This document shows, piece after piece, positions 52,885-55,917 of a DNA stretch of 64,000 bases (positions are counted from its first letter, which is position 1; each line of letters begins with the position of its first letter). The notes beneath the pieces are model-generated. The model was not told the origin of the DNA and did not search any database. It was given only the letters and a program-made list of their open reading frames with translations. The DNA lies in assembly GCA_003577165.1 (NCBI GenBank), contig QEUM01000004.1:1-64000 (forward strand). Reading direction: 5' to 3'. The position numbers were made by a program, and so were the translations under genes. This stretch comes from Armatimonadota bacterium. Its GTDB lineage: Bacteria > Armatimonadota > Fimbriimonadia > Fimbriimonadales > ATM1.

Positions 52885-52916
52885 AGTTTAGCACAGGGGC
52901 CTTCCACGGCCATAAT
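52885..52916. promoter_or_regulatory. Divergent -10 elements of gatC and the YyaL-like gene
   Basis: On the minus strand TAAACT (52885-52890) ends six bases before gatC. On the plus strand CATAAT (52911-52916) ends ten bases before the YyaL-like ATG. Both messages would have almost no leader. Confidence 0.45.
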
Positions 52917-52926
52917 CCTGGCGAGA

Positions 52927-54978
52927 ATGCCAGGGAACCCGAAGCGGCCCCGTTTCACCGTTCTGTCGTATCTGGTCGCGGTCCTGGCAATCGCAGCCGT
53001 CGGCCTTCGACTCGCAAGCAATCGCCTGCCGGAAAACAAGCCGAATCGCATGTCGGAGGAGTACGGGGCGTACGCCCGCGCAGCGGGCCGATCGCTGATT
53101 GACTGGTATCCGTTTTCGGCGGAGCCGTTCGCCCGGGCGAAGGAGCGGGGGCGGCTGATCCTGCTCGAAGTCGGCAGCCAGCTGTCCAGGGAAAGCCGCA
53201 TCTACACGGATCGCTACTTCAAGGACAGCGAGGTGATCCGCCTGTTGAAGAACCACTTCGTGTGCATCCGGGTCGATGCGGAGGAGATGCCCTGGGTCGC
53301 GGACCTATTGAATCTCAACGAACCGCTCATGCCGCTGGCGGGCGACTGCTTGGTGGCCGTGCTCGATTCAGAAGGGCGGATCGTCAGCGAGTCGCCGTTT
53401 CGCATCCTGCGGTCACGCCGCGACCCGATCGGGCTGTACGACTGGCTGACTCGGCTCACGCGCGCGTGGGTGACTGACAAGCGCGAGATTCTAAGGGCGA
53501 CGGAGGCGAGCCAAAGGGCGAGGGAGGCTGCTGCCTCGGCCTTTGGGCCAGGCCAGGGGGTGACGGCTTCGGACGTGAGCCAGCTCTGCGCCGCGCTCGC
53601 CGGCGCGACGGATACGACGGCTGGAGGGCTGCGAGGGGCCGTGTCTCCCGTCGCGGCTCCCATTTTGTCGCTGCTTGGGGCGGAGCGGTCGAATCCCTCG
53701 CGGGGCGCGAGGATCGCATGGCTCCTGCGACTCCGTGAGTCGCCGTGCTATGAGCAGGTCGACGGAGGGTTCTTCTACAACGCTGCCGCACAGAGTTGGC
53801 GGGACCCGAGGTACGGGATTCGGACCGGAACCACGGCGCTGCTCGCGGCGGAGTACGCGGAGGCTGGCCGAGAACTCGGATCGGGTTTGTTCACTTTCAC
53901 CGCTCGGCAAACGATGAATATGCTGATCGAGCGACTGATCGACCCAAGTTCTCAGATGTTCTTTGCAGGACTCGCTACCGACATGGATGCCTTCGAGAAG
54001 AGCGAATACTACGACTGGAATGAGGACGAGTTGCCGGAGAGCGCTCGGAACACCTTCGTCGTTTACACGCGGGAAACTGGCGTTGGGCCGCTCGGGCTTC
54101 GCAACGAGCGGGATTTCGAACTCGGCGCATCCGAATCTCGCGCGCAGAGGATTCGATCGGCGATTCCGGCATTGGCCGACGTTCGCCAGAGCCGGCCAAA
54201 ACCCGAAGTCGTCGCGAATCTGTTCGCAGAAGCGAATGGAAAGGCTGTGTCCGGCATCGTTCGGGGCGCGCAAGCGCTCGATGACCAGGAGACATTGGGA
54301 TTCGCGCTGCGCGTCTTCGAGCGGGCGCGGCGCGCCTTTGTTCAGCCCCTCGGCGACGTGCTGTTTGCTCCCGCTGGCAAGGGACGGACCACCGGATATG
54401 CGGGCGCGTACGCGTGGATGGCTCGCGCTGCGATTGATTGTTACGGCGCGACGGGAGATGTCGAATACCTGTCAATCGCCCAGAAGATCGTGAATCGGCA
54501 AAACGAACTGTTCTGGCACGAGCGGGGGGGGTACACGTCCGTGCTGTCTTCGGAGTGTTCGTTTGCAGGTTTTTATGCGCCTGTGCGGCCGTACATCGAT
54601 ACGCCCGACGAAAGCCTGAACAGCGTATCGGTGCGGAATCTCATCGATCTGGCTCAAATCGCGGGAGACGCTTCCTATTGGGATCGCGCATACACGGTTC
54701 TCACAGTTTTCGGGAGGCCCGCGCTCACGAAAGGCGAGTTCGGTTCGGGGATCGCGCGGTGCATCCTCCTCGCCGAAATGCCGGCCCTCTTGTGTACTTC
54801 AAACGTCGTCGAAGAGGTGAGACGGAGACTTCCCGGAGCGCGCGTTCTCCTCGCGCCGCCGGGGCGCGTGTCGCGATCCGGAATCTATTTGCTGACTGGC
54901 GCTGCGGCAGACGGTCCCGTCAGCATCGAAGATGCCGCCGCTCGCATCGGGCTTTCGTTGCGTCCCGACGGCCTTTGA
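52927..54978 (+). CDS. YyaL/DUF255-like thioredoxin plus (alpha/alpha)6-barrel protein lacking CxxC
   Basis: A 683-residue protein beginning with a hydrophobic anchor (LSYLVAVLAIAAVGLRLAS). A thioredoxin-like N-terminal region (DWYPFSAEPFARAKERGRLILLEVGS...FVCIRVDAEEMPWVADLL, about 58-122) and a C-terminal alpha-barrel with GRTTGYAGAYAWMARAAIDCYGATGDVEYLSIA resemble the YyaL/SSP411 family. In that family the thioredoxin fold carries a CxxC (StChWCH); here the aligned segment is SQLSRES and has no cysteine. Redox activity is therefore unlikely. The ATG at 52927 begins exactly at the anchor. Its 3' end overlaps the opposite gene by 94 bases. Confidence 0.75.
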   Translation: MPGNPKRPRFTVLSYLVAVLAIAAVGLRLASNRLPENKPNRMSEEYGAYARAAGRSLIDWYPFSAEPFARAKERGRLILLEVGSQLSRESRIYTDRYFKDSEVIRLLKNHFVCIRVDAEEMPWVADLLNLNEPLMPLAGDCLVAVLDSEGRIVSESPFRILRSRRDPIGLYDWLTRLTRAWVTDKREILRATEASQRAREAAASAFGPGQGVTASDVSQLCAALAGATDTTAGGLRGAVSPVAAPILSLLGAERSNPSRGARIAWLLRLRESPCYEQVDGGFFYNAAAQSWRDPRYGIRTGTTALLAAEYAEAGRELGSGLFTFTARQTMNMLIERLIDPSSQMFFAGLATDMDAFEKSEYYDWNEDELPESARNTFVVYTRETGVGPLGLRNERDFELGASESRAQRIRSAIPALADVRQSRPKPEVVANLFAEANGKAVSGIVRGAQALDDQETLGFALRVFERARRAFVQPLGDVLFAPAGKGRTTGYAGAYAWMARAAIDCYGATGDVEYLSIAQKIVNRQNELFWHERGGYTSVLSSECSFAGFYAPVRPYIDTPDESLNSVSVRNLIDLAQIAGDASYWDRAYTVLTVFGRPALTKGEFGSGIARCILLAEMPALLCTSNVVEEVRRRLPGARVLLAPPGRVSRSGIYLLTGAAADGPVSIEDAAARIGLSLRPDGL

Positions 54979-55862
54979 GTCTGAGCGCGATTCGATGCGG
55001 CGTAGACGACCGCTGAAACAGCGGCCAGGCAGAGAATTCCCAAGACCAGCGTCATCGCCTTCTCGCTTTGCGTTAGTCGAAACTCTTTGCGATTCGCGAG
55101 AAGCACGACGACCGAAATTGGCAAAAGCGCGGGCAAGGCCCGCAGGGGGAGCCCGGCGAGCTCGACGTGTCCGAAGAAGATTGCGACCCACAGGTAGAGA
55201 ACGAGCGCTGGCACGATCGCGAAGATCGTCGCTCTCGAGTTCATTTGAAAACGGTGGATCGCCAGGAAGAACATTCCGAGGAAGAGAAAGTCGGCTGGGC
55301 CAATCATGGCGAGTGGCTCCGCCCTGCCAGCCGTCGGGATCGAGAACGCGATGCTCTCGAAGACAGCCCGCCCGACCTCTGAGCCGAGGGCCTGTTTTAC
55401 GGTCCCCGACGGCGCGAAGACGATGACCATGTCAACGGTCGCCAACACGATCGCGGCCGGCAGCAGCAGGTTCTTGTCGCGAAACAGTGAGGCGACGGTG
55501 AACCCAAGGCATCCAGCCCACCCGACCGTCGCAATCGACGACAAAGCGGCGTAAAGGCCGGTTGGTCCGACGGCGTTGCGAATGAGCACGGTGAGGCCCG
55601 CCGAACAGAGGGCGAACAGGACCAGACCCAGAATCGAAGCTCTCAACGTCCATCGCTCGCGGGACGCGCAAAAGAGGATTGCCACGGGGAGAGTCACGAA
55701 CACCGCCGACACGACGATATTCGCCGCGTCGACCCAATCAAACGGTATGGCGAGGTTGGGCGTGAGCCACGTGAGGGTGGCCAACGCCACGGCGAGCAGA
55801 ATTGCGATCTTCGCTCCCGCACCGAGCGGGGTTGCTCGCGCACCAAGGTCAGAAGACCCCAT
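54885..55862 (-). CDS. Signal-peptide-peptidase/presenilin-like (A22) membrane protein
   Basis: About 325 residues with eight to nine hydrophobic segments. The arrangement of charged residues resembles A22 intramembrane aspartyl proteases: Asp144 in ATVDMVIVFAPSG (for the YD motif), then 47 residues later Asp191 in AMIGPADFLFLGMFFLAIHRF (for GxGD), then LAGLPLRALPALLPISVVVLLA (for the PAL region). The spacing and flanking residues match signal peptide peptidase closely by eye, though GxGD reads GPAD and the YD Tyr is Val. If active it would cut membrane-embedded peptides. The ATG at 55862 has TATGAA six bases upstream. The last 94 bases overlap the YyaL-like gene on the opposite strand. Confidence 0.5.
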   Translation of the reverse strand: MGSSDLGARATPLGAGAKIAILLAVALATLTWLTPNLAIPFDWVDAANIVVSAVFVTLPVAILFCASRERWTLRASILGLVLFALCSAGLTVLIRNAVGPTGLYAALSSIATVGWAGCLGFTVASLFRDKNLLLPAAIVLATVDMVIVFAPSGTVKQALGSEVGRAVFESIAFSIPTAGRAEPLAMIGPADFLFLGMFFLAIHRFQMNSRATIFAIVPALVLYLWVAIFFGHVELAGLPLRALPALLPISVVVLLANRKEFRLTQSEKAMTLVLGILCLAAVSAVVYAASNRAQTQRPSGRNESPMRAAASSMLTGPSAAAPVSK

Positions 55863-55917
55863 TCTCGCTTCATACCTGTCGGGCGGAGCGGCCTGCACGC
55901 GACAGACTGGCCGTGCC

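Follow-up and report, generated by a model that had tools for sequence, protein, structure and literature searches.

To our knowledge, presenilin/SPP-type proteases are usually described from eukaryotes and archaea only. In the human GxGD enzymes, the YD motif lies in TM6, the GxGD motif in TM7 and the PAL motif in TM9 (PMC7768045), and the presenilin substrate APP has a beta-strand that the PAL motif binds (PMC7366577). SPP has an orientation that is the inverse of that of presenilin and takes type II helices (PMC7366577, PMC7768045). For a characterised bacterial protease of this type, we found no report in the literature searched, which leaves most subscription papers uncovered, so that an earlier mention there or in MEROPS is possible; the term "bacterial presenilin" occurred there in a single passing use for an unnamed homologue, probably PSH. 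Here, we describe a gene in a 64,000-nucleotide stretch of an Armatimonadota contig (QEUM01000004.1), referred to as the window, whose product is very probably a bacterial GxGD-type intramembrane aspartyl protease that is distantly related to presenilin, SPP and archaeal PSH.

The gene occupies 54885..55862 on the minus strand and encodes a polytopic membrane protein of 325 residues from an ATG, with a longer ORF possible from an alternative GTG start at 55898. Its 3′ end overlaps the convergent DUF255/thioredoxin-domain gene (52903-54978, plus strand; identified with Pfam) by ~94 bases. On the other side of the protease-like gene lies the pyrR-pyrB-pyrC cluster, in divergent orientation (Pfam, with PyrC named by eye). 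Within the window's family, the gene lies next to DUF255 and PyrR/PyrB. Outside this family, it is often followed by a same-strand leuS (25 of the 88 phylum loci examined) and is divergent from an upstream ANTAR response regulator (22) and a GAF/HisKA_2 kinase (19), with L093, L098, L107, L123 and L137 among the loci concerned. Gene context was also searched for a clue to the substrate, and none was found. The conserved context supports a genuine gene, and the 325-residue ORF is one.

An earlier note on this DNA had placed two membrane Asp at residues 144 and 191, with a PAL-like segment about 50 residues later, and translation reproduces this spacing exactly. The first conserved Asp, D144 (codon 55431-55433), is part of helix 5 (residues 130-149; 55416..55475), the second ends the GxGD-type motif G188-P-A-D191 (55290..55301) 47 residues later, and the PAL motif (residues 244-246; 55125..55133) begins with P244, 53 residues past D191; all of these features are on the minus strand. 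The stretches AMIGPADFLFLGMFFLAIHRF and LPLRALPALLPISVVVLLA begin at residues 185 and 238, respectively. Hydrophobic segments surround both Asp, which sit in adjacent helices. D144, D191, G188 and P244 are invariant in 50 relatives from the window's order. Across the whole phylum, we collected 159 homologous ORFs, and D144, D191 and G188 are each present in all 158 that cover the respective column, none lacking either Asp, in agreement with the conservation that the note had called for. Both Asp also stay invariant after homologues from two other phyla are added. The PAL motif is almost as well kept, with P244 in 153, A245 in 121 and L246 in 151 of the 159 ORFs, and N257 and E267 (157/159) join P244 and L246 as near-universal residues. 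Distant members retain the pattern, as in VLGMGDFIILAFLF together with LPALPFI, and mean column identity across the phylum is only ~20% despite the invariant D144, D191 and G188. Given the invariance in the order and the phylum-wide conservation, the D144/D191/PAL pattern is more than chance, and to judge from the sequences the conserved residue set has a catalytic look.

The window protein departs from the canonical motifs at two positions, both of which had been pointed out before. At residue 190, directly before D191, it carries Ala where GxGD has Gly, and the 158 covering ORFs have either Ala (93, including the window protein) or Gly (65) and nothing else. Thus, 65 relatives have an exact GxGD and the window protein belongs to the relaxed GxAD form. 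Because Ala and Gly alternate among relatives, the Ala is, as far as the alignment tells, a lineage variant of GxGD and provides no argument against it. The glycine at this position is the one that we take to be G384 of presenilin-1, which Steiner 2000 and Perez-Revuelta 2010 reportedly studied, as their titles suggest. At the first Asp, Val-Asp replaces YD in the window protein, and Tyr occurs in few relatives (e.g. L024, with YDIFLVLTP, and L026-L028), so YD is not a general feature of the bacterial family.

Searches with family profiles connect these motifs to presenilin. Against all PDB sequences, the top match of profile A2 is the presenilin-1 CTF (E=0.0021), which is also the sole match of profile A4 (E=0.0099); profile A5 has human presenilin-1 CTF as its best match at E=0.00034, with an unrelated match next at 0.048. 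The profile-presenilin-1 alignment runs from GLGDFIF to ALPALPI and sets PAL against PAL. The same search with profile A1, built from the 50 relatives of the window's order, returned zero matches because the profile required phylum-wide diversity. In Pfam, the Presenilin model PF01080 is the one matched by most members, always under the cut-off, and for the relative L238 it is the only Pfam match (E=0.0026, sub-threshold). The window protein itself gave nothing meaningful against Pfam and NCBIfam, and no model in either collection reaches its curated threshold for any family member. An NCBIfam match of one member to CbtA (E 0.0007) was discarded as a single isolated match.

An independent line comes from archaeal PSH, for which the bait fragment was letter-for-letter identical to PDB 4hyc. 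Aligned with hhalign to a set of 132 archaeal PSH sequences, the family profile gives a best local alignment of 107 columns with a score of 29.4, which registers the first Asp with YD, IGpGD with MGMGD and LPAL with GLPPL. This score was attained neither in 120 local shuffles (maximum 22.4) nor by a reversed profile (16.0), and the E-value is modest, at 0.0024-0.0032 for one comparison. A broader PSH set was required, as neither A1 nor A2 gave anything useful in hhalign when set against A3, a narrow PSH alignment. These results bear on the possibility that this membrane protein family is unrelated to A22 and resembles it through convergence in short motifs, a reading that would sit well with the lack of any curated profile over threshold and with the low global TM-scores of the structural matches described below. 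However, sequence profiles, structure search and profile-profile alignment concur on the same family with the motifs in register, and we give convergence a slim chance.

AF2 models were obtained for the window protein (pLDDT 90.3, pTM 0.85) and for L238 (pLDDT 89.5, pTM 0.85). In Foldseek searches against the PDB, ranks 1-7 for the window model are all presenilin, as are ranks 1-11 for the L238 model, followed by SPPL2a at rank 12. The presenilin matches have probabilities of 0.99-1.00 at best, with global TM-scores of just 0.3-0.4 and E-values >0.01. A viral structure library, which doubles as a negative control, returned no meaningful match to the model. The comparison with SPP and PSH that the earlier note had proposed gave the SPPL2a match of L238 and the PSH register.

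Both models have nine helices, of which four, not five, precede the first Asp; in the window protein these are residues 15-36, 41-66, 73-95 and 101-125. The two Asp fall in helices 5 and 6 rather than in TM6 and TM7, the PAL motif lies where helix 8 (246-256 in the window protein) begins, and a further helix 9 (residues 265-295; 54978..55070, minus strand) contains the near-invariant E267. A beta-hairpin (strands 173-177 and 180-187; 55302..55346, minus strand) immediately precedes the GxGD-type motif. The models therefore have the number of helices of the nine-helix presenilin arrangement anticipated for this protein, but not its layout, given the four helices before the first Asp and the extra helix after PAL. 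As modelled, the protein would have its catalytic half in common with presenilin and an N-terminal half that has diverged.

A presenilin-like fold and genuine homology would also be compatible with an ion leak channel or transporter, in which the Asp pair binds ions or protons and no peptide is cleaved. Transporters often have buried acidic pairs. A non-proteolytic Ca2+ leak role has also been proposed for presenilins (PMC5669866). Against this reading, the first Asp, GxGD, PAL and the beta-hairpin before GxGD together constitute the full protease requirement, and presenilin ranks far above any transporter in Foldseek. We therefore regard a channel or transporter as unlikely and a protease as the better description.

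The other GxGD family of bacteria, the type 4 prepilin peptidases (A24), consists of polytopic enzymes (PMC2947513), and a divergent member would account for a bacterial GxGD protein. In A24 enzymes, however, the Asp sit in soluble regions several helices apart (PMC2947513), whereas here they occupy adjacent hydrophobic helices. In addition, the same genome has a separate A24 gene, PF01478 is absent from the Pfam matches of the window protein and from the family tallies, and no A24 structure is among the Foldseek matches listed. A prepilin peptidase is thus very unlikely, with next to no probability in our estimate.

Returning to the presenilin/SPP relationship, the four helices before the first Asp and the helix after PAL argue that the protein is a divergent bacterial branch of the A22 kind and not a standard A22 member, as judged from alignments and models. 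The earlier proposal of a divergent or novel A22 branch is in this respect upheld by the motifs, the PDB profile matches and the fold search; the helix arrangement is non-standard and the proteolysis it implies is a prediction.

The family is widespread within its phylum. Of 291 genomes from the window's phylum, 268 contain a match to profile A1, usually as a single copy, and a relative is encoded in one copy in 55 of 61 related genomes. Two of 80 genomes from other bacterial groups also give matches, and these represent two small phyla in which the gene is found in 3/3 and 6/10 genomes. In the gene tree, 23 of the 24 taxonomic families or groups tested are monophyletic, as is the window's order. 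Since the gene tree matches taxonomy, vertical inheritance from deep in the phylum is most likely. One genome (G081) carries tandem gene copies (L118 and L156), both with the first Asp, GPGD and a PAL-like motif, which is PAL in one and AAL in the other. The gene is absent from G054 and G055, reduced genomes of ~1.5 Mb that are 97% complete, which might reveal a replacement for it.

The loop charges provide a clue to orientation. The mean number of K+R is 9.7 in loops 2, 4, 6 and 8 versus 5.2 in loops 1, 3, 5 and 7, and the former are richer in 154 of 159 proteins. Under the positive-inside rule, this suggests that the loop between the two Asp and the start of PAL lie outside the cytosol, as in SPP. 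D144 and D191, buried in the membrane, would form the catalytic dyad, and the beta-hairpin before G188 would, together with the PAL segment, hold the unwound helix of a substrate as an additional strand. The hairpin of the window model, directly before G188-P-A-D191, suits the PAL/beta-strand mechanism of presenilin. With an SPP-like orientation, the enzyme would be expected to cut N-in (type II) helices, and its likeliest house-keeping task may be to clear small membrane proteins or the remnants of signal peptides.

Bacteria usually have SppA as their signal-peptide peptidase. The window's genome has no match to its model, PF01343, which scores above the cut-off in three of the 61 related genomes (one strongly) that include the 55 with the protease-like gene, and in 11 of 14 genomes of a control set. 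This near-absence of SppA in the order makes remnant clearance plausible, with the link to SppA being a correlation only, and we put forward such clearance as a tentative leading guess at the substrate. It is possible, if somewhat doubtful as a whole, that the family constitutes a third, purely bacterial GxGD branch that is ancestral to the phylum and vertically inherited, with its own helix plan (four helices, the Asp pair, PAL and an extra helix), and that serves as an SPP-oriented house-keeping signal-peptide peptidase replacing SppA.

How old the presenilin/SPP family is and where it arose are questions touched by a bacterial branch that spans a phylum. The members of this branch, which include natural GxAD proteins, would be simple enzymes of a single subunit whose N-terminal half is smaller.

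Compared with known systems, the bacterial protein resembles presenilin (PSEN1/2, MEROPS A22A, PF01080) in having two Asp in successive membrane segments, a GxGD motif and a similarly spaced LPAL in register, and presenilin is its best PDB match by both sequence and fold. It differs in that presenilin has a long loop between the Asp, whereas 47 residues separate them here, and in its predicted opposite orientation, the general lack of Tyr before the first Asp, one helix fewer before that Asp, an extra C-terminal helix and no known cofactors. With SPP/SPPL (A22B, PF04258), it has in common the short Asp-Asp spacing, PAL, the predicted placement of the Asp-Asp loop outside the cytosol and the fold match of L238 to SPPL2a, but PF04258 is missing among the Pfam matches listed and the helix arrangement is another. 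The type 4 prepilin peptidases (A24, PF01478) are likewise bacterial GxGD aspartyl proteases, but differ in Asp placement, fold and sequence, and are encoded separately in this genome. Archaeal PSH/MCMJR1 (PF06550) is also prokaryotic, and its first Asp, GMGD and GLPPL align in register with the bacterial motifs, but it has five helices before YD rather than four, and PF06550 has no match in 397 genomes of the window's phylum and other bacteria. The two families nonetheless parallel each other in distribution, each being near-universal and mostly single-copy in one phylum, with PF06550 found in 96 of 100 genomes from the phylum that contains Methanoculleus.
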